NCBI GenBank assembly: GCA_003279845.1
Contig: QCGP01000001.1
Coordinates: 62,001-126,000, forward strand
Direction of reading: 5' to 3'
From: Prochlorococcus sp. AG-388-F11
GTDB lineage: Bacteria > Cyanobacteriota > Cyanobacteriia > PCC-6307 > Cyanobiaceae
Length of the DNA stretch: 64,000 bases
The notes under the pieces are model-generated. The model was not told where the DNA came from. It searched no databases and was given only the letters and a program-made list of their open reading frames with translations. Each line of letters begins with the position of its first letter. Position 1 is the first letter of the stretch. Position numbers and translations under genes: made by a program. Shown here one piece after another: positions 29,971 through 40,611 of the stretch.

Positions 29971-30135
29971 TTAATTTAAGGGTACTCTCTTTTTCACTGT
30001 TTCTTTTTTCATATCATCAATCTCATTTCTGATTTTGTTGTAGTAGGCCAACTCTTTTGGATCATCAGAACCAAGACCATAATTCATGGTTGTTGCAATA
30101 TAAATTCGGTGCATCCAGCATGAAGATGGTGGCAT
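29971..30135 (-). CDS. Paralog of the 34215 gene, 54 aa, just outside the left repeat
   Basis: The frame reads MPPSSCWMHRIYIATTMNYG, then LGSDDPKELAYYNKIRNEID and VKKRVPLN. It matches 34215-34406, which lies inside the element. The C-terminus is shorter because the last codons are lost. The copy ends ~90 bp before the left tRNA-Thr, so the two copies straddle the element boundary. Function unknown. Confidence 0.5.
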   Translation of the reverse strand: MPPSSCWMHRIYIATTMNYGLGSDDPKELAYYNKIRNEIDDMKKETVKKRVPLN

Positions 30136-30221
30136 TAATGGAATACAAGCTTTATCAAAGCTATCTGAATTTTAGGTAAAATGCTGTCCATGAGTTCCCA
30201 GCTTTTTTAGTCAATAGCGCA

Positions 30222-30315
<94 letters not shown>

Positions 30316-30499
30316 GGGACCATTAATGATTGCCTGCAGCACAGTAATTCTGGAGTGTGCAGAATAATTTAGAGGGACCATCAGTTGCTTTTAAATTATT
30401 TCTAGGGAGTGCTGTGATTCATCTTAAGTCCATTTAAACCTCGGATTTTTCTTTTTTATGGCTCCCTAAAGAAATTATGTTTTGTGAGCCAAATTTTTA

Positions 30500-31080: not shown

Positions 31081-31341
31081 TTAAACGAAACCTGGAATTA
31101 TTTGGCCTGTTGTTAAGTAAGCTCCAACAGCAGCAATTAATCCAAGCATTGCGAATCTGCCATTAAGAGTTTCTGCAACAACTTTTTCTTTTTCAATTGT
31201 TTTGACTTTAGTGTTTGAATTTGTCATTGGATTTAAAGTTAGATAGTTTAAATTTTCGTTTTGGAATTGCTTGGTTAGATAAGCAACGAGGATAGCTGTG
31301 AAGAATACGATTACAGCTAAAAAACCTGAAAGAGGAGACAT
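31081..31341 (-). CDS. hli: Hli protein with extra N-terminal TM helix, 86 aa
   Basis: Residues 1-38 form a separate TM segment (SGFLAVIVFFTAILVAYLTK...), then a complete Hli: AETLNGRFAMLGL and TTGQIIPGFV. The start at 31341 overlaps the previous stop (TAATG), supporting the fused form; an internal ATG at 31227 would give a plain 48-aa Hli. Both may be used. Fusing a helix to an Hli would give a two-helix, SEP-like arrangement. Confidence 0.75.
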   Translation of the reverse strand: MSPLSGFLAVIVFFTAILVAYLTKQFQNENLNYLTLNPMTNSNTKVKTIEKEKVVAETLNGRFAMLGLIAAVGAYLTTGQIIPGFV

Positions 31342-31550
31342 TAAAAAATACCTGGAATTATTTGGCCTGTAGTTACATAAGCTCCCAAAAGTGCTATTAA
31401 ACCTATCATTGCCCAACGACCATTAACTTTTTCTGCGTTTTGAGGATATCCATCGTAAGAAACAGATTGATCAACATAAGGACGAGGCTCAGTTGGAAAA
31501 ATATTTTGCCTTCCGCCTGATTCAGTAGTTATGTATGAAGAATTAGTCAT
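31341..31550 (-). CDS. hli: High-light-inducible protein, long N-terminus, 69 aa
   Basis: The start is placed at the ATG at 31550 (MTNSSYITTESGGRQNIF); the hydrophobic extension upstream is in the promoter. The C-terminal half holds AEKVNGRWAMIGLIALLGAY and TTGQIIPGIF, the full Hli motif and tail. It is the first cistron of the minus-strand cluster down to 30755, with a TTTACAT...ATGTTACG element upstream. Confidence 0.85.
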   Translation of the reverse strand: MTNSSYITTESGGRQNIFPTEPRPYVDQSVSYDGYPQNAEKVNGRWAMIGLIALLGAYVTTGQIIPGIF

Positions 31551-31765
31551 TAGTAATAATTTAATTGTTAACAAACGTAACATATTTATTAATTAATGTA
31601 AAGAAAAAGGCTGTAAAAATGTGTATCTCGGTACTTTATGCGCAATAATGATACAGATAAGTAACAGTTAGCAATTAATTTTTAAAGTTGAAGCTAATAA
31701 TTAAAAGATCATATAGATATGAAAAAGCCTCCCCGGATTTGTTTTTGATTGATCAAAATTAAATA

Positions 31766-33336: not shown

Positions 33337-34122
33337 ATGAAAATTATTAAGAGACTCAGGTCGCTGCCAGGCGATTCTCTGGGTGTTATACGCCGCACCC
33401 CGCCACTTGTTTTCGCAATGGCTGTCTTATCTCTCGGAGGATTTATAGGTGCCTCCACGGTCCTTGTGAGAGGGTTCAGAACGGTTGAGAATACTATCAC
33501 TGTTACAGGTGCAAGTACTGAAAGTTTTGAGAGTGATATTGCAAAATGGTCAGTCCAGGTAAAGACCTCAGGTAAAACTCAGATTGACTCATTTACCAAG
33601 CACAAGGACTCCATTAATAAGACAATGGAATTCCTTAAAGCCAATGGAATTGAGGACAGCGTAAAGCAGGATGTTTATCTTGGCCCTGCGAGTATCAGTG
33701 AATATAAAACTAGGAATCCCAAGACTAATGAAATCATTAGAACTGAATGGATTACTTATCAAAATATTGAGATTGAAAGTAGGGATGTTTATAACATCCA
33801 GAAGACTCATAGTCAGATAACAGAATTGCTTGGCAAAGGGGTAAGGGTGAAACCAAGCCGTCCTGAATTCACTTATTCAAAGCTGGCTGATAAGCGCGTT
33901 GACATGCTTGCTAAGGCAGCAAAGGATGCACGAATCAGAGCTGAGGCTATTGCGCTTCAGGCAGGATCTGAAGTAGGCGGTTTGAAGAGAGTTAATACTG
34001 GAGTTTTCCAGATAACTGTTCCGAATTCCACCAAGGTAAGCAGCTGGGGGTCTTATGACACCACCACCATCAAGAAAGACATCACTGCGGTTATGGGAGT
34101 AACTTTTGCTGTTAAGAAGTAA
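33337..34122 (+). CDS. SIMPL-domain (DUF541) periplasmic/membrane protein, 261 aa
   Basis: The N-terminal TM anchor (~24-45) is followed by a DUF541/SIMPL domain: NTITVTGASTESFESDIAKWSV (~52-73), YQNIEIESRDVYNIQKTHSQI, and AAKDARIRAEAIALQAGSEVGG (~196-217). SIMPL proteins bind partners at the envelope and are linked to stress or outer-membrane integrity. Bases are visibly richer in G/C than in the neighbouring Hli genes, which suggests transfer from another bacterium. Confidence 0.82.
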   Translation: MKIIKRLRSLPGDSLGVIRRTPPLVFAMAVLSLGGFIGASTVLVRGFRTVENTITVTGASTESFESDIAKWSVQVKTSGKTQIDSFTKHKDSINKTMEFLKANGIEDSVKQDVYLGPASISEYKTRNPKTNEIIRTEWITYQNIEIESRDVYNIQKTHSQITELLGKGVRVKPSRPEFTYSKLADKRVDMLAKAAKDARIRAEAIALQAGSEVGGLKRVNTGVFQITVPNSTKVSSWGSYDTTTIKKDITAVMGVTFAVKK

Positions 34123-34218: not shown

Positions 34219-34406
34219 TTATCCATTCTGTCTGGGGTATCCCAATTAAGGGGTATCCCTTTTTTTACTGGTTCTTTTTTCATATCATCCATCTCTTTTC
34301 TGATTTTGTTGTAGTATGCCAACTCTTCTGGATCATCAGAACCAAGACCATAATTCATGGTCGCTGCAAGATAAATTCTGTGCATCCTGTATGACGATAG
34401 TGGCAT
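34215..34406 (-). CDS. Hypothetical protein, 63 aa (paralog of 29971)
   Basis: MPLSSYRMHRIYLAATMNYG, then LGSDDPEELAYYNKIRKEMD and PVKKGIPLNWDTPDRMDK. The ATG at 34406 is preferred over the TTG four codons upstream because the paralog starts there. It is coupled to the micro-gene at 34123. It occurs both inside (here) and just outside (29971) the element. Confidence 0.55.
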   Translation of the reverse strand: MPLSSYRMHRIYLAATMNYGLGSDDPEELAYYNKIRKEMDDMKKEPVKKGIPLNWDTPDRMDK

Positions 34407-34418
34407 TAATGAAGACAA

Positions 34419-34738
34419 TCTCTGTTAAATATATATGAATTTAAGGCAAAATGCTGACCTCTGAGATCCTAGTTATAGCAGTCGATTACGAAACCCCATC
34501 ATAATACAGGGGAAGAGGGGGTAAAAAGACAAGAAATTGAGGGAGGACTACTTACTGGATGTGTGTACATCATCATTGTAAGTACTGAAAATAAACAACT
34601 CTCAACTAAAACTAAACTACTTATATCTGATACGTGGGTATGTGTGTAAACACATAATGCACGTACTGTATAAAGTTACATATATGTTGAGTATGAGAGT
34701 ATATTTTTTATGTCTTATTCTTAGAAAAGTGTTCAGTT
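34419..34738. other. Intergenic region upstream of the NUDIX-helicase operon
   Basis: It holds a GAATTTAAGGCAAAATGCTG...GAGATCC block that is repeated next to the left tRNA-Thr (30174-30210), a run of GTGTGTACATC-like motifs, and the palindrome at 34639. No gene seen. Confidence 0.4.
34639..34656. promoter_or_regulatory. 18-bp palindrome, candidate operator
   Basis: TATGTGT-GTAA-ACACATA: seven-base arms around four bases, 83 bp before the NUDIX start. It could be the binding site of a repressor for the NUDIX-helicase operon. Confidence 0.35.
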
Positions 34739-35134
34739 ATGATTGAGGTTGTTGCAGCAATTATTAAAGTAGAAAATAAATTTCTTTGTTGTCAAAGAGA
34801 CGAAAATAAATATAAATATATTTCAAAAAAGTTTGAATTTCCTGGAGGCAAAGTTGAGAAAAATGAAACTAATGAAGAAGCTTTAATTAGAGAAATAAAG
34901 GAGGAATTAAATTTAGAAATTTATATCAATAGATTTTTTGCAACAATAAATTATTCCTATCCTGATTTTGATATTAAAATGCATTGTTTTTTATGTTCAC
35001 TGAGAGAGTTCAATATCAAATTAAATGATCATATTTCTTTTGAGTTATTAGACTTAGAAAGTATTCAATCATTAGATTGGGTTCCTGCTGATTTGGAATT
35101 GATTAGATTCCTGAAGGATGAAAATGGAATCTGA
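34739..35134 (+). CDS. NUDIX hydrolase (MutT-like), 131 aa
   Basis: The NUDIX box GGKVEKNETNEEALIREIKE followed by ELNL (about 36-59) has the required R-E-x-x-E-E; the last G is N. The family removes damaged or unusual (d)NTPs or other NDP-X compounds. It overlaps the helicase by 17 bp in a different frame, so it is translated and regulated together with it. It is likely the nucleotide-handling partner of a defence or repair helicase. Confidence 0.88.
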   Translation: MIEVVAAIIKVENKFLCCQRDENKYKYISKKFEFPGGKVEKNETNEEALIREIKEELNLEIYINRFFATINYSYPDFDIKMHCFLCSLREFNIKLNDHISFELLDLESIQSLDWVPADLELIRFLKDENGI

Positions 35135-38042
35135 AAATAGCATCTTATCGCAGGCAATCAAAACTGGATTAATAGATAAAAATATTGAATCAAGCATAAA
35201 TTTACAGCCAAAAATAATTACTAACAACTTTCAAAATAATGAAAAGGTTTTATCTGTAATAAATGATTTATTAGTAGATTGCGAAGAGTTTTTTTTCAAT
35301 GTTGCCTTTCTTACTAAGAGTGGTGTATTGAGTTTAATTAATACATTAGAAAGAATAGAGAAATCAGGAATAAATGGAAAGGTATTAATTTCTAAATATC
35401 AGAACTTTAGCGACCCAAATGCTTTGAGGATGCTCTTGAATTTTTCTAATATTGAATTAAGAGTAATTGACGAAAATAATTTTCATGCAAAAGGATATCT
35501 TTTTAAATTAAAAAACAACTATGAATTAATAATTGGAAGCAGTAATTTAACACAAGATGCTTTAAGCAAAAATACAGAATATAATTTGAAATTATCTTTA
35601 TCAAAAAATAGTAAATTAAAAAGTGAAGCACTTTCTCTTTTTACTAGGTATTTTTCTAGAGGGATAAAAGTTAGTGAAAGTTTTTTAAATGAATATGAGA
35701 AAGTCTATGGAGAAATAAAAAGAGTAAATCAATCTGTTAGTACAAAAAAAATAGATAAGTTTTCCCCTATAGAGCCTAATGTTATGCAGAAAGAAGCTCT
35801 TATTAATTTAGAAAATTTAAGGAGGGCAAATGTTAAAAAGGCTCTACTAATTTCTGCTACTGCAACTGGAAAAACTTATCTTTCAGCATTTGATGCCAAA
35901 AACTTCAATGCAAAACGCGTACTCTTTATTGTTCACAGATGGAATATTGCTAAAAAAGCAATGGAGTCTTTTGAAAAAATATTTGGAGACGAGAGAACTT
36001 ATGGACTTTATAAAGGCTCCATTAATGATATTAATTTTGACTTCATCTTTTCTACAAATCTCACAATAAGTAATTCTCAAAACTTAAATAAATTCAGTCC
36101 TGACTTTTTTGATTACATAATAATTGATGAAACTCATAGGGCAGGAGCGTCCACATACCAGAAAATTATTAACTATTTTTCACCTAAGTTTTTATTAGGT
36201 ATGACTGCCTCTCCAGAAAGAACTGATGGCTTTGATATCTTTAAATTATTTGATCATAATATTGCTTATGAAATTAGATTGCAAAAAGCAATGGAAGAGG
36301 AATTAGTTGTTCCCTTTCATTATTTTGGAATAACAGATTTAAATATAAATGGAGAAATAATTGATGAAAAATCTGATTTTAATAAATTAATTTGTGATGA
36401 AAGGGTAGAAAGAATTTTGGATATATCAGATAAATATGGTTGCGATGACAATATCATTCGAGGAATAGTGTTTTGTTCTCGAAAAGATGAGGCTTATGAA
36501 TTGGCTAATAAATTTAATTTAAAAGGTCGTAAGTCCATTACTTTAACGGGTAGTCAATCTGAAGATGAAAGAGAAAATGCTATCCAACAATTAGAAAGTG
36601 ATAATCTTGAGGAAAAATTAGAATTTATTTTTGCAGTTGATATTTTTAATGAGGGAATTGATATCCCAAGAATCAATCAAATAATTATGTTGAGGCCAAC
36701 TCAATCTAATATCATCTTTATTCAACAGCTTGGGAGAGGTTTAAGAAGATTTGAGAAAAAAGAATATCTCACTGTGATTGATTTTATCGGAAATTACCAA
36801 AATAATTTTTTAATACCTGTAGCACTTTTTGGAGATACCTCTTACAACAAAGATAATTTAAGAAAGCTTCTATCTGCAGGTAGTGCACATATACCAGGTG
36901 CTAGCACTGTAAATTTTGACGAAATATCGAAGAAAAAAATATTTGAGTCAATATCTAATGCAAATCTACAAACGAAAAGGGAACTTATTAATGATTACAG
37001 ACTAATGAAATACAAACTGGGAAGATATCCAATGATGATGGATTTTTTTAATAATAATGCACGTGATCCAATTCAATTCGTAAACCATTCAAATTCCTAT
37101 ATCGAATTTTTAAATATGGTAGAAGATGATTTTCAAATTGATCTAAATTATAAAAATCTAAAACTTTTACAAATATCTTCTCAATTTTTGAATAATGGTA
37201 AATCTATCTTAGATGTTTATTTAATAAAAATTTTATGTATTGAAGAAAGAATTTCAACAGAAGATTTCAAAAATAGAATAGAAGAAAAATTTAAAATAAT
37301 TGTTGAAAATCAGCATTTAAAAGCTGTTTTTAATATTATCAATCTTCAATATTTTACTGAACTAAAAGAAAGTAAAAAAGTTCCTGTAGGAGAAATATAT
37401 AATTTTGAGATTCTAAAAATTAGAGAAAACATAATAACTATTGGGAGCTCATTAAAGGAGGCAATTTCGTCAAATAATTTCAAATTATTCTTACTAGATT
37501 CCTTAAATTATGCGATAAAATCATTTGGATTAAAAAAACAAAAAACTGATTATAAAGATGGCTTTTTAAGATATGAAAAATATACAAGAAGAGATATTCA
37601 TAGAATCTTAAATTGGCCGAAAGAACCAAATCATCAAAGTGTTGGGGGTTATATGTCATCACCAGATAAGCAAAATTGTCCGATTTTTGTGAAATATAAA
37701 AAAGATGAAAAGATTGCAGACACAATGAAATATGAAGATAAATTTATTAATAATTTCACACTTGAATGGTATTCAAAAAACTCAAGAACTTTCAAGAGTG
37801 GAGATGTTATTGAGATAATTGAAAGTTCTCAAAATAATATGAGATTACCTTTATTTCTTAAAAAAGATGACAATGAGGGACTTGATTTTTATTTTTTAGG
37901 AGATCTAAAAGTTGATAAAAGTTTTTTAGAGGAAACCTTTATTATTGATAAAAAGAACGATAAAAAGAAAGCTATTGTTAAGATACGAATGCATTTAGAT
38001 AAACCTATAAAGGAAGATTTATATAGGTATATTATTGATTAG
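35118..38042 (+). CDS. PLD-domain / DEAH-box helicase / DUF3427 protein, 974 aa
   Basis: Domain order: a PLD-like N-terminus (~20-190) with the HxK...N motif NFHAKGYLFK and GSSNLTQDAL; helicase superfamily 2 from ~225 with SATATGKTY (Walker A), IIIDETHRAG (DExH), GMTASPERTDG, then a C-terminal helicase domain with FNEGIDIPRINQIIMLRPTQ and QQLGRGLRR (motif VI); DUF3427 from ~620 to the end. This is the SSL2-type helicase architecture seen in restriction-like defence genes. Overlap with the NUDIX gene shows a fixed functional pair. An internal in-frame ATG at 35124 is an alternative start. Confidence 0.88.
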   Translation: MKMESENSILSQAIKTGLIDKNIESSINLQPKIITNNFQNNEKVLSVINDLLVDCEEFFFNVAFLTKSGVLSLINTLERIEKSGINGKVLISKYQNFSDPNALRMLLNFSNIELRVIDENNFHAKGYLFKLKNNYELIIGSSNLTQDALSKNTEYNLKLSLSKNSKLKSEALSLFTRYFSRGIKVSESFLNEYEKVYGEIKRVNQSVSTKKIDKFSPIEPNVMQKEALINLENLRRANVKKALLISATATGKTYLSAFDAKNFNAKRVLFIVHRWNIAKKAMESFEKIFGDERTYGLYKGSINDINFDFIFSTNLTISNSQNLNKFSPDFFDYIIIDETHRAGASTYQKIINYFSPKFLLGMTASPERTDGFDIFKLFDHNIAYEIRLQKAMEEELVVPFHYFGITDLNINGEIIDEKSDFNKLICDERVERILDISDKYGCDDNIIRGIVFCSRKDEAYELANKFNLKGRKSITLTGSQSEDERENAIQQLESDNLEEKLEFIFAVDIFNEGIDIPRINQIIMLRPTQSNIIFIQQLGRGLRRFEKKEYLTVIDFIGNYQNNFLIPVALFGDTSYNKDNLRKLLSAGSAHIPGASTVNFDEISKKKIFESISNANLQTKRELINDYRLMKYKLGRYPMMMDFFNNNARDPIQFVNHSNSYIEFLNMVEDDFQIDLNYKNLKLLQISSQFLNNGKSILDVYLIKILCIEERISTEDFKNRIEEKFKIIVENQHLKAVFNIINLQYFTELKESKKVPVGEIYNFEILKIRENIITIGSSLKEAISSNNFKLFLLDSLNYAIKSFGLKKQKTDYKDGFLRYEKYTRRDIHRILNWPKEPNHQSVGGYMSSPDKQNCPIFVKYKKDEKIADTMKYEDKFINNFTLEWYSKNSRTFKSGDVIEIIESSQNNMRLPLFLKKDDNEGLDFYFLGDLKVDKSFLEETFIIDKKNDKKKAIVKIRMHLDKPIKEDLYRYIID

Positions 38043-38167: not shown

Positions 38168-38632
38168 ATGGCTAGTTTAAAAAATAAAAAAATTGAAAGA
38201 AAAGGAATTTCCATTTGGCCTTTAGTTGGCGCTATATATTGCCCAATTATCTTCGTAGTTCTAGTAATTAATTTGCCTAAAGTGCAATGGAAATATGTTT
38301 TTGAATCTAATAAAACTAGAGTTGCTCGCCGTCATAAAAAAGCGGAAGATATTGGTTTGCCTGGCATACCTTATTGGAGAAATTCAGGCTCAGCAGCAAT
38401 ACTTTATTTAAATAGAGATGGAGTTGCTTATGCGATGTGCGGTCCTGATTTCTTTTGCTCAGAAGAATTGAATGCAAAACGAGGTATTCATTTTATGCCT
38501 ATTAGTGGAGGAGTTAGAAGAATTAATAGCAAAGTTATATTTGCAGCAGATAGCTATTGGTGTGATAGCTATGACATTAATCATGCAGGAAAATGTAGAT
38601 CAGGTGGATGGGTGAATGGTTCGGAAAGATAA
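38168..38632 (+). CDS. Membrane-anchored hypothetical protein, 154 aa
   Basis: One TM helix (~17-36, IWPLVGAIYCPIIFVVLVI), then a soluble domain with four cysteines (AMCGPDFFCSEEL, SYWCDSYDINHAGKCRSGG). The cysteine pattern suggests disulfides in an exported domain. No family recognised. It is the last cargo gene before the integrase. Confidence 0.6.
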   Translation: MASLKNKKIERKGISIWPLVGAIYCPIIFVVLVINLPKVQWKYVFESNKTRVARRHKKAEDIGLPGIPYWRNSGSAAILYLNRDGVAYAMCGPDFFCSEELNAKRGIHFMPISGGVRRINSKVIFAADSYWCDSYDINHAGKCRSGGWVNGSER

Positions 38633-38798: not shown

Positions 38799-39764
38799 TT
38801 AAAAACTTAATTGATAGTGACTGTATCTCATCAACATTTTTATATCTCTGTGTCCACTGCATGCACTTATCTCCAAAGCATTCATTCCTGAACTCCACAT
38901 TCTGCTTATGGCAATATGTCTTAGATCATGAAATCTGAGAGTTTCAAGCCCGGCCCTTTTTCTTGCTTTATCAAATCCATTTCTCGCAGCCCCTTTTTTA
39001 ATAGTAAGTACTTTGCCTTCTTTACTTTCAAAACTTCTTAGTAGCATTTTTGCGTCTGATGGTAATGGAACAATTTTCATTGAATTTGAACCTCCTCTTG
39101 CTGCACATTCTTTTCTTTGGATATAAATTTTCTCTTTATTTAAATCAATATTTCTCCAGGTCAGGCTTAAAAGTTCGGAGCGGCGGAAGCCAGTTGTCAG
39201 GGCCAGCTTTGTGAGTCTCAGATGATTTTTGTTGGACATCTGAGACAGTTCATATAAAAGTTTTTGTTCATCCTGATCAGTGAAAAATGGCGCTCTCGCA
39301 TCCCCCGTTCCTCTCACTCTCAGATCCCTTGCAGGGTTATCTTTTATTTCCGCTCCTCTTTTATCTCGTGCCCAGTCAATTAATACACGTAAAATTCTCA
39401 GTTCACGCATAACTGTATTTGGTTTCACTTTCAGTAATCGTTCATCTCTCCAGACCGCAAAGTGCTTTATCTGCAGATCACTTAGTGGAATATCTCCAAG
39501 CCAGCTTTCTGCCGTCACCCTGAGAGGATATTTTTCATTTTCCGCACTGCGGTGCAGCAGCAGCGGACCATTTATATAGTCATTGATTGCCTCTCCAAGG
39601 GTTAAGGGGATGTCATTTAAAACCTTTTTTGCTCTTTCTTCAACTGCATCTGCCCAGGATTTCGCCAGATCTCTGGAAAGAAAAGTTCTTGACCTGGGGC
39701 CTACATAATTCTTCCTTCTGATAAGGACCTGCCAGCCGCTGCCGCTTCTTCTGATTGTTGCCAT
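38799..39764 (-). CDS. int: Tyrosine recombinase (integrase), 321 aa
   Basis: A phage-type integrase. The N-terminus MATIRRSGSGWQVLIRRKNY resembles arm-binding domains. The catalytic residues are present: TTGFRRSELLSLTW (Arg I), FHDLRHIAISRMW (H-x-x-R), SGHRDIKMLMRYSHY (His and nucleophilic Tyr). It sits ~140 bp from the right tRNA-Thr, where attP-adjacent integrases lie. The ATG at 39764 is preferred over a GTG nine codons upstream. Its bases are G/C-richer than the host DNA, as in the SIMPL gene. Confidence 0.93.
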   Translation of the reverse strand: MATIRRSGSGWQVLIRRKNYVGPRSRTFLSRDLAKSWADAVEERAKKVLNDIPLTLGEAINDYINGPLLLHRSAENEKYPLRVTAESWLGDIPLSDLQIKHFAVWRDERLLKVKPNTVMRELRILRVLIDWARDKRGAEIKDNPARDLRVRGTGDARAPFFTDQDEQKLLYELSQMSNKNHLRLTKLALTTGFRRSELLSLTWRNIDLNKEKIYIQRKECAARGGSNSMKIVPLPSDAKMLLRSFESKEGKVLTIKKGAARNGFDKARKRAGLETLRFHDLRHIAISRMWSSGMNALEISACSGHRDIKMLMRYSHYQLSF

Positions 39765-39902
39765 TTCGGTGTCATCGTTTGTGTGATGCACCTCCAGATA
39801 TCTACCTTTAAAACAGAAAAGTGGACCCGAAAACGGACGTCCACTTCTGAATAATTTCTTTGTGCGATAGTGGCAATCTCACTGATACCAAGCTATCCGG
39901 CG

Positions 39903-39986
<84 letters not shown>

Positions 39987-39996
<10 letters not shown>

Positions 39997-40068
39997 TGGA
40001 TTTGAACCAACGTAGGCAGAGCCAGCGGATTTACAGTCCGCCCCCTTTAACCACTCGGGCACCGACCC
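39987..40068 (-). tRNA. trnY: tRNA-Tyr (GTA)
   Basis: 82 nt with a class-II long variable arm. Acceptor GGGTCGG / CCGGCCC + A, anticodon arm GCGGA-CTGTAAA-TCCGC (anticodon GTA), variable arm TGGCTCTGCCTACG, T arm TTGGTTCAAATCCAA. The left repeat holds only its last nine bases. Confidence 0.93.
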
Positions 40069-40170
40069 CCACTATTTGAACTTATCAGTTAATGGACACT
40101 TTTTGTGAAAATGTTTTGGTTTTTTTGTTTCTTTCTAGATAGCATTTGTAAAGAAAAGGTTTAATTGACG

Positions 40171-40611
40171 ATGCATATCTTATTGATAAATGGGCCAAAT
40201 CTAAATCTTTTGGGTACTAGAGAACCTGAAATATATGGTAAAAAAACATTAAATGATATTGAAAAAGATTTAACTAAAATTGCTAAAGATAAAAGTATTA
40301 ATCTTGAATGTTTTCAAAGTAATCATGAGGGTGAAATAGTTGATAAAATTCATGATTCTGTTAACAGGATTCAAGGAATTCTTATAAATGCTGGGGCTTT
40401 TACTCATACTTCCATTTCCATCCGAGATGCTTTAATTGGATCAAAAATTCCATTTGTAGAGTTACATATTTCAAATATTTTTAGTAGGGAAGATTTTCGT
40501 AAAGAATCTTTTCTTACGGATAAAGCTGTAGGAATCATTAGTGGATTCGGGATATCCAGCTATTCTTTAGCTCTTGATGGAATAATTGAATATTTAAGTA
40601 ATAAAGATTAA
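40171..40611 (+). CDS. aroQ: 3-dehydroquinate dehydratase, type II, 146 aa
   Basis: A shikimate-pathway enzyme that dehydrates 3-dehydroquinate. [21 protein letters not shown] (~3-23) is the type-II signature with the catalytic Tyr loop. [32 protein letters not shown] and [16 protein letters not shown] complete the active site. The ATG at 40171 (after AAAGGTTTAATTGACG) is preferred over a TTG two codons upstream. miaE follows directly. Confidence 0.95.

Follow-up and report, generated by a model that had tools for sequence, protein, structure and literature searches.

SauUSI of Staphylococcus aureus is a type IV restriction enzyme that cleaves DNA containing 5-methylcytosine (5mC) or 5-hydroxymethylcytosine (5hmC), shredding the substrate (PMC7913695), and both bases are also taken by TagI, the model enzyme of the SRA-HNH kind (PMC6212794). 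SauUSI-like type IV enzymes have been studied as one-gene systems; SauUSI itself was characterized in vitro without a NUDIX partner, and its paper contains none of the terms operon, mutT, hydrolase, or pyrophosph (PMC7913695). NUDIX hydrolases acting on the corresponding nucleotides have been described separately. The Bacteroides fragilis 5-substituted-(d)CTP pyrophosphatase (PDB 3GWY; Q5LBB1_BACFN) was screened in vitro against 74 compounds, and its substrates were classed by its authors as mutagenic nucleotides to be removed (PMC5158307). Its kcat/Km values (in M-1 s-1) are 4.8e6 for 5-Me-dCTP, 4.4e6 for 5-hydroxymethyl-dCTP, 6.7e6 for 5-Me-CTP, and 8.5e4 for 5-OH-dCTP, with much lower values for canonical nucleoside triphosphates (PMC5158307). 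In Streptococcus suis, the PADLOC family PDC-S07 and type IV restriction-modification (RM) genes lie within 20 genes of each other in 23 of 23 occurrences (PMC12813430). A search of the open-licence PMC literature found no paper that joins the NUDIX and nuclease specificities, which does not show that none is in print.

Here we describe a gene pair in a 64,000-nucleotide stretch of Prochlorococcus sp. AG-388-F11 (assembly GCA_003279845.1, contig QCGP01000001.1, positions 62,001 to 126,000; referred to as the window), in which a NUDIX gene overlaps the gene for a SauUSI-type enzyme on an integrative island. A NUDIX gene is a near-constant partner of SauUSI-type helicases and recurs beside them in both bacteria and archaea. 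The same NUDIX family is also found next to, or fused with, an unrelated HNH-type enzyme, which suggests that the partnership follows the modified base rather than the nuclease.

A SauUSI-type restriction enzyme and its overlapping NUDIX gene

Both genes are open, intact open reading frames (ORFs) on the plus strand. The NUDIX gene (34739..35134) encodes 131 amino acids with an intact Nudix box, and the ORF of the large protein opens at 35118 and ends at 38042. The original prediction, made from the window sequence, had described an overlapping pair consisting of a NUDIX gene and a PLD/SF2-helicase/DUF3427 gene, and Pfam matched each of these domains (NUDIX, 6.7e-14; PLDc_2, 6e-8; ResIII, 9e-35; Helicase_C, 1e-13; DUF3427, 2e-67). 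The predicted overlap of 17 bp holds for the first ATG of the helicase, at 35118. The second in-frame ATG, at 35124, is probably the true start, because AAGG sits 6 nt 5' of it and because the 67% identical helicase of a second genome of the family (G388) starts at the matching position, again with an 11-bp overlap; the overlap in the window is thus probably 11 bp and the enzyme 972 amino acids long (35124..38042). The motor named DEAH in the prediction is present as an SF2 motor (35769..36746; ResIII at residues 216 to 366 and Helicase_C at residues 446 to 541), with the motifs ATGKT and DETH. A palindrome that had been put forward as a candidate operator, TATGTGT-N4-ACACATA, does lie upstream (34639-34656). 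The same 331 bp, however, contain 8 inverted-repeat pairs of at least 6 nt, this one included, and nothing in the G388 locus matches it with 3 mismatches allowed, so it gives no evidence for an operator. A promoter scan was at background level (28 found versus 24.9 in shuffles).

The large protein matched SauUSI (PDB 7clg) at 1e-205 across residues 9 to 970 and the PADLOC type IV model mREase_IV at 2e-213, and over 974 columns it shares 39.8% identity with an S. aureus copy. It aligns end to end with SauUSI as a single chain made up, in order, of PLD nuclease, SF2 ATPase, coupler, and target-recognition domain (TRD). The HxK residues of the PLD nuclease, H121 and K123 (35484..35492, plus strand), correspond to the catalytic H119 and K121 of SauUSI, which are named together with the residues around the flipped base in PMC7913695; they are invariant in our alignment A2 and present in 78 of 79 helicases, with a gap in the remaining one. 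The window protein shares with SauUSI four of the six residues lining the flipped-base pocket, which in SauUSI numbering are Y831, F841, D858, and W868. It differs at I842, which is V, and at M829, modeled as filling the gap left by the flipped base, which is G. The last 173 residues, the C-terminal part of DUF3427 (37521..38039, plus strand), were modeled with AlphaFold2 from 29 sequences at a predicted local distance difference test (pLDDT) score of 88.3. The model resembles SauUSI (7clg; Z 17.3 over 143 residues, 3.0 A) and the SRA domains of SUVH6 (Z 11.2) and SUVH5 (Z 10.8), and the C-terminal part of DUF3427 is therefore predicted to hold an SRA-type reader. By its sequence, the large protein is a full-length, SauUSI-type type IV restriction enzyme, presumably dependent on modified cytosine, and it probably shreds DNA that contains this base.

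NUDIX genes accompany SauUSI-type helicases across phyla

To place the pair among other genomes, one genome per species (84,980 species) was scanned with a six-sequence helicase alignment, which matched at least 594 stretches and gave at least 572 confirmed relatives, the best 80 of which were taken as helicase loci. A NUDIX gene lay within 700 bp of the helicase in 75 of these best 80 loci, upstream in 54 and downstream in 22, with one locus having both; 16 of the 22 downstream genes were on the same strand as the helicase and 6 were on the other strand. The farther flanks of the same loci held 3 NUDIX genes in 662,018 bases, a density that by simple arithmetic would place about half a case near the helicases by chance, so the pairing is beyond chance. 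Among the five loci without a NUDIX gene, two (L108 and L123) end 26 to 29 bp past the helicase gene and one (L090) lacks the nuclease part of the helicase, while L067 and L079 have no NUDIX gene beside the helicase. The hosts include Bacteroidota, Bacillota, Vibrio, and Psychrobacter as well as the archaea Methanolobus, Methanococcoides, and Methanobrevibacter. On plasmids, the NUDIX gene was beside the helicase in all three gene-tabled stretches among the four best matches, and the three helicase relatives on viral contigs were all partial.

SauUSI itself belongs to this pattern. In both S. aureus stretches, a NUDIX gene of this kind lies directly upstream of sauUSI, as in the window, and in one of them its product is identical in 130 of 130 residues to PDB 5X1X, titled "Mutator mutT protein." The association also holds from the NUDIX side in the Bacteroidota, where the 3GWY sequence alone (E of at most 1e-30) retrieved 9 of 395 genomes, one of which (G728) was already known, and the helicase was next door in 9 of 9. 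As a control, 12 loci of more distant PLD/helicase/DUF3427 proteins of about 1050 amino acids (L033 to L044, with 453 to 1110 bp of 5' flank; L003 to L030 were not counted) contained no NUDIX gene. Pairwise distances among the NUDIX proteins correlate with those among their helicases (r of 0.71 over 79 pairs, with none of 2000 shuffles as high), a correlation that common descent of the hosts alone could also give.

Kinship and likely chemistry of the NUDIX protein

The closest solved structure to the window NUDIX protein is 3GWY, at 112 bits, and the two are 42.6% identical across 129 residues; the PADLOC profile PDC-S07 is matched at 4.7e-44 (147 bits). The score of the window protein against the MutT 8-oxo-dGTPase model TIGR00586 (67.8 bits) is below the curated cutoff of 97.9, and its score against the NudG equivalog NF007834 (74.3 bits) is below the cutoff of 156; judged by these scores, it is NudG-like and not orthologous to NudG. 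For comparison with 3GWY, the value for Escherichia coli MutT on 5-Me-dCTP is 2.8e3 (PMC3744803), and that for E. coli NudG on 5-methyl-dCTP is tabled at 1.3e6 (PMC5158307). When 3GWY was used as a query against plasmid, phage, and viral collections, identities were at most 56%.

A tree of 223 NUDIX domains has few alignment columns and many weak forks. It groups the window protein and 3GWY in one set of 100 rows with 98-percent support in the Shimodaira-Hasegawa approximate likelihood-ratio test (SH-aLRT). Seventy-seven of these rows are paired with the helicase, 13 are labeled HNH, 9 are others, and one is 3GWY itself. 5X1X falls in a 96-percent set of 27, of which 25 are paired, whereas the closest rows to NudG are unpaired. 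On this tree, the helicase label changes 17 times, versus 73.6 in shuffles, and the HNH label 8 times, versus 19.4, counts that are helped by near-copies among the rows; L154 was labeled HNH with its 12 kin although its contig ends before the partner, and the helicase-paired L291 was omitted. The kinetics of 3GWY together with the shared, supported tree set suggest that the window NUDIX protein probably destroys modified dCTPs, that is, the deoxynucleoside triphosphate forms of both bases that the partner nucleases read.

The same NUDIX family is linked to HNH-type enzymes

The PDC-S07 profile (E of at most 1e-30) matched 109 of 378 Bacillota genomes, and the 112 loci examined cover 113 places in these genomes; L166 is from the same genome as L091, and other overlaps with the helicase set are possible. 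The helicase was within 700 bp in 20 of the 112 loci, not counting L243, where it is 1.5 kb away, so PDC-S07 alone was rejected as a marker of the pair. In a further 7 loci, an HNH type IV gene was adjacent, abutting or overlapping the NUDIX gene (taking the first possible start) in L186, L188, L249, L277, L287, and L296 and lying about 125 bp away in L229. In 5 more (L208, L209, L210, L211, and L212), the two are fused into one protein of 413 to 488 amino acids with the HNH type IV part preceding the NUDIX part; PADLOC mREase_IV matched 5 of 5 fusions, and Pfam HNH matched both of those scanned among L208 to L210. When the neighbors of NUDIX genes without the helicase were scanned (137 of 142 proteins, leaving out three of 90 to 92 amino acids, the near-copy L224, and the 1208-amino-acid L241), they belonged to mixed families; among the first 25 of 80 PADLOC families, mREase_IV was the commonest, with 5 members, and the first 25 of 142 Pfam families were considered. 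Strong NUDIX matches at L288 to L290 had no type IV neighbor that we could find, with L288 and L289 near contig ends. In the Pseudomonadota, 6 of 378 genomes matched, with the helicase in two (G1126 and G1204) and an HNH partner in none. In two loci, L213:3608-4447 (280 amino acids) and L214:3578-4381 (268 amino acids), the frame that contains the NUDIX domain is longer and extends it at the N or C terminus; the extension in L213 has no Pfam match, and L214 was scanned with PADLOC only.

Prophages provide further instances of the second partner. Thirteen IMG/VR prophage loci, which are close kin and not 13 independent events, carry the NUDIX gene without the helicase, and the next gene encodes an HNH type IV enzyme in 12 of them (split over two frames in L162), while the contig of the remaining one, L154, ends there. 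In the three prophage HNH proteins scanned, HNH was above and SRA below the Pfam cutoff, and the closest solved structure to that of L157 is 6ghc, a 5-methylcytosine-specific restriction enzyme A. The NUDIX family of the window is therefore adjacent or fused to HNH type IV enzymes of the SRA-HNH or McrA kind, known from TagI, ScoA3IV, and EcoKMcrA, which have a different nuclease fold from SauUSI and no helicase part. That one NUDIX family accompanies both kinds of nuclease, in some cases within a single polypeptide, argues that the link is to the base and not to the helicase. This linkage across unrelated nucleases is the main argument for the probable chemistry of the NUDIX protein.

The pair is cargo of an island at tRNA-Thr

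The pair lies on an island of about 9.7 kb bounded by two copies of tRNA-Thr(ggt), both on the minus strand. The proximal tRNA gene (39904-39976), followed by a tRNA-Tyr gene at 39986-40068, is within a 101-nt direct repeat (39900..40000) that is 98% identical to the distal copy at 30219..30319, a candidate attachment site that contains the second tRNA-Thr at 30223-30295. A tyrosine recombinase gene (38799..39791, minus strand; Phage_integrase, 4e-23) adjoins the proximal end. A plus-strand ORF of 154 amino acids (38168..38632) separates it from the pair and has no Pfam match below 0.05 and no PADLOC or NCBIfam match at 0.01. On the other side, the cargo slot is bordered by a passenger SIMPL/DUF541 gene (33337..34122, plus strand; PF04402, 2.9e-23). 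Direct repeats at 29973-30189 and 34244-34459 (168 nt at 88% and 49 nt at 78% identity, with a spacing of 4270) copy sequence from outside the distal tRNA-Thr to a position directly after the SIMPL gene and may mark the edge of an earlier, nested insertion. Two small minus-strand ORFs at 31081-31583 may encode high-light-inducible proteins, which they resemble by eye.

Twelve other genomes of the genus were searched for the site, which was obtained in 11 (not in G1886; L330 and L331 are short stretches), and the pair was at this site in none of the 11. The site is empty in three (L324, L326, and L328), where sequence matching 29990-30319 continues directly into 39903-40611 with only the tRNA gene shared, in agreement with the distal boundary at 30219-30319. 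Two others (L323 and L329) carry different cargo at the site, together with the SIMPL gene and integrases that are 86% and 85% identical to that of the window. In L323:3382-10803 (G238), the slot holds matches to MzaB, MzaC, MzaD, and MzaE, just downstream of a C5 methylase gene (G238:C1:362036-363031), and in L329:2653-4578 (G1892), near the homologous integrase, it holds a type II restriction enzyme and a cytosine methylase. In G388, a pair 67% and 73% identical to that in the window occupies an island (L045) at this tRNA gene as well. That island also carries type III RM genes and the SIMPL gene, and a tRNA-Thr remnant of 48 bp forms its end. A 347-amino-acid ORF between the pair and this tRNA-Thr (L045:8163-9206) had no PADLOC match; by eye, we take it to resemble T5orf172/GIY-YIG proteins. 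With a tyrosine recombinase, duplicated tRNA ends, and empty sites in relatives, the pair is defence cargo that comes and goes on this island. The island shares a tyrosine recombinase by a tRNA gene, duplicated tRNA ends, and swappable cargo with the tycheposon-like tRNA islands of Prochlorococcus, to which it may belong.

These results bear out the original prediction's placement of the pair in a mobile element next to an integrase and support its reading of the pair as defence cargo. Its alternative, that the pair serves replication of the element, is disfavored by the absence of the pair from the L323 and L329 islands with homologous integrases and by the presence of relatives on islands, plasmids, and a chromosome in unrelated phyla.

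Near-full-length DUF3427 profile matches were confined to the window genome (G000) and G388 among 400 genomes of the family; the assembly of G000 comprises 37 contigs that total 1.5 Mb, with a completeness of 86.6%. In related genera, PLD/helicase/DUF3427 proteins of about 1050 amino acids are accompanied on their contigs by extra DUF3427 pieces, with up to 6 matches per genome (for example, G243:C45:5622-15118, G274:C51 and C56, and G140:C1:1863796-1868429; L003 to L030 in part), as if these were a store of spare target-recognition domains.

The C5-cytosine methylase family PF00145 was not found in either pair-bearing genome, G000 (at the completeness given above) or G388. Four of the 9 relatives that lack the pair at this site did have it, a weak difference, in small numbers and incomplete genomes, that would be in keeping with type IV restriction; one of the four matches (G1887) is split in two pieces. 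DUF3427 was absent from the whole genome in G238, G311, and G392 and from the island site in the other six.

Proposed function of the pair

We propose, with somewhat better than even confidence, that the two genes form a modified-cytosine defence unit in which the NUDIX protein protects the DNA of its own cell. By homology to SauUSI, whose mechanism others have studied, the SRA domain would flip out 5mC or 5hmC in incoming DNA, and recognition of the base would switch on the SF2 motor and allow a dimeric PLD nuclease to shred the DNA. The translationally coupled NUDIX protein, if it acts like 3GWY, would hydrolyze 5-methyl-dCTP and 5-hydroxymethyl-dCTP to monophosphates. In the least certain step, this would keep modified bases out of the cell's own DNA, so that the chromosome would not become a substrate. 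The modified dCTP could come from phage-made precursors or from nucleotides that the shredding of modified DNA sets free. Kinases that act on 5-methyl-dCMP and 5-hydroxymethyl-dCMP have been reported from phages (PMC10742078), and their products could mark the chromosome for shredding, which may be why the cell needs the NUDIX protein. A restriction system that has no methylase can be safe only as long as its target base is missing from the DNA of the host, and clearing the precursors would be the simplest role for the partner. Starvation of phages that need modified dCTP is a possible side effect.

Several observations weigh against this proposal. The pairing rate was counted in the best 80 of at least 572 helicase loci and may drop in more distant ones. 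The kinetics belong to a protein that is 43% identical to that of the window, and their standard errors are described by the authors as large (PMC5158307). W868 of the flipped-base pocket varies, being kept in 52 of 79 relatives, and D118, tried as a signature of paired NUDIX proteins, was rejected since it is present in 84 of 86 unpaired relatives. Neither the helicase nor an HNH partner accompanies 80 of the 112 Bacillota NUDIX loci, whose neighbors are mixed, or 4 of the 6 Pseudomonadota matches; on the Bacillota evidence, PDC-S07 (model PDLC04899), which the window protein matches but which is an unvalidated candidate with many unpaired members, probably over-calls defence. A methylase may have been missed in G000 because that genome is incomplete, and the self-protection reading is conditional on modified dCTP forming inside this host.

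The main alternative, which we think unlikely, is that the NUDIX protein is itself an antiviral effector, draining 5-hydroxymethyl-dCTP or 5-methyl-dCTP so that a phage stalls or makes DNA that other systems cut, with residual modified DNA being shredded by the nuclease. The rate of 3GWY on 5-hydroxymethyl-dCTP, which is on a par with that on 5-Me-dCTP, and the sharing of an island, a gene pair, and sometimes a polypeptide by NUDIX protein and type IV nuclease are what such an effector would have, but a drain that failed to stop the phage would leave its DNA less modified and the type IV partner less effective. An ordinary pool sanitizer of the MutT or NudG kind, acting on oxidized nucleotides and adjacent to the nuclease through cotransfer only, would account for the many family members without a type IV partner and for the PDB title of 5X1X, and E. 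coli NudG, for all its activity on 5-methyl-dCTP, suppresses spontaneous and oxidative mutations (PMC5158307). We consider this quite improbable in view of the pairing across phyla among the best 80 loci, with overlaps or tight spacing in many, the fusions with HNH enzymes as another sort of type IV nuclease, and the score below the MutT cutoff; the distance correlation points the same way, though shared ancestry could suffice for it.

Gene overlaps and fusions would also hold a complex at fixed stoichiometry, as expected if the NUDIX protein bound and controlled the nuclease, like an antitoxin or an accessory subunit, with catalysis secondary. This appears very improbable, as the Nudix box is intact in every NUDIX match listed, SauUSI was characterized in vitro on its own (PMC7913695), and the NUDIX gene is downstream in 22 and on the other strand in 6 of 75 loci. 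A role for the pair in excision or replication of the island, or in the handling of a signaling nucleotide, is hardly credible: the pair is one ORF from the integrase, but it is missing from the two same-site islands, which carry other defence genes in its place, and in G388 and on plasmids it occurs with no integrase seen next to it. For a signaling nucleotide, also raised by the original prediction, no evidence was found. That prediction was right about defence and half right about the NUDIX protein, whose suggested removal of modified nucleotides gains indirect support from the 3GWY kinetics and from the linkage to two unrelated type IV nucleases.

The kind of enzyme is known and the colocalization in S. 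suis is in print, whereas the partnership with a NUDIX protein of matched chemistry is unrecognized as far as we have searched. We regard it as an even question whether type IV restriction has a second component that has been overlooked, a NUDIX protein acting on modified dCTP and recruited by at least two unrelated nuclease lineages, PLD-SF2-SRA (with SauUSI) and HNH. Its job would be to keep the DNA of the cell free of the base that the nuclease cuts, which amounts to a rule for self and nonself without a methylase. Such a component would join two published data sets, on enzyme kinetics and on restriction specificity. It would give PDC-S07 a mechanism where it is paired, and well-studied barriers to gene transfer, SauUSI among them, would gain a partner. 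It would also explain how a cell survives with a nuclease directed against a base that phages or its own nucleotide recycling may install.

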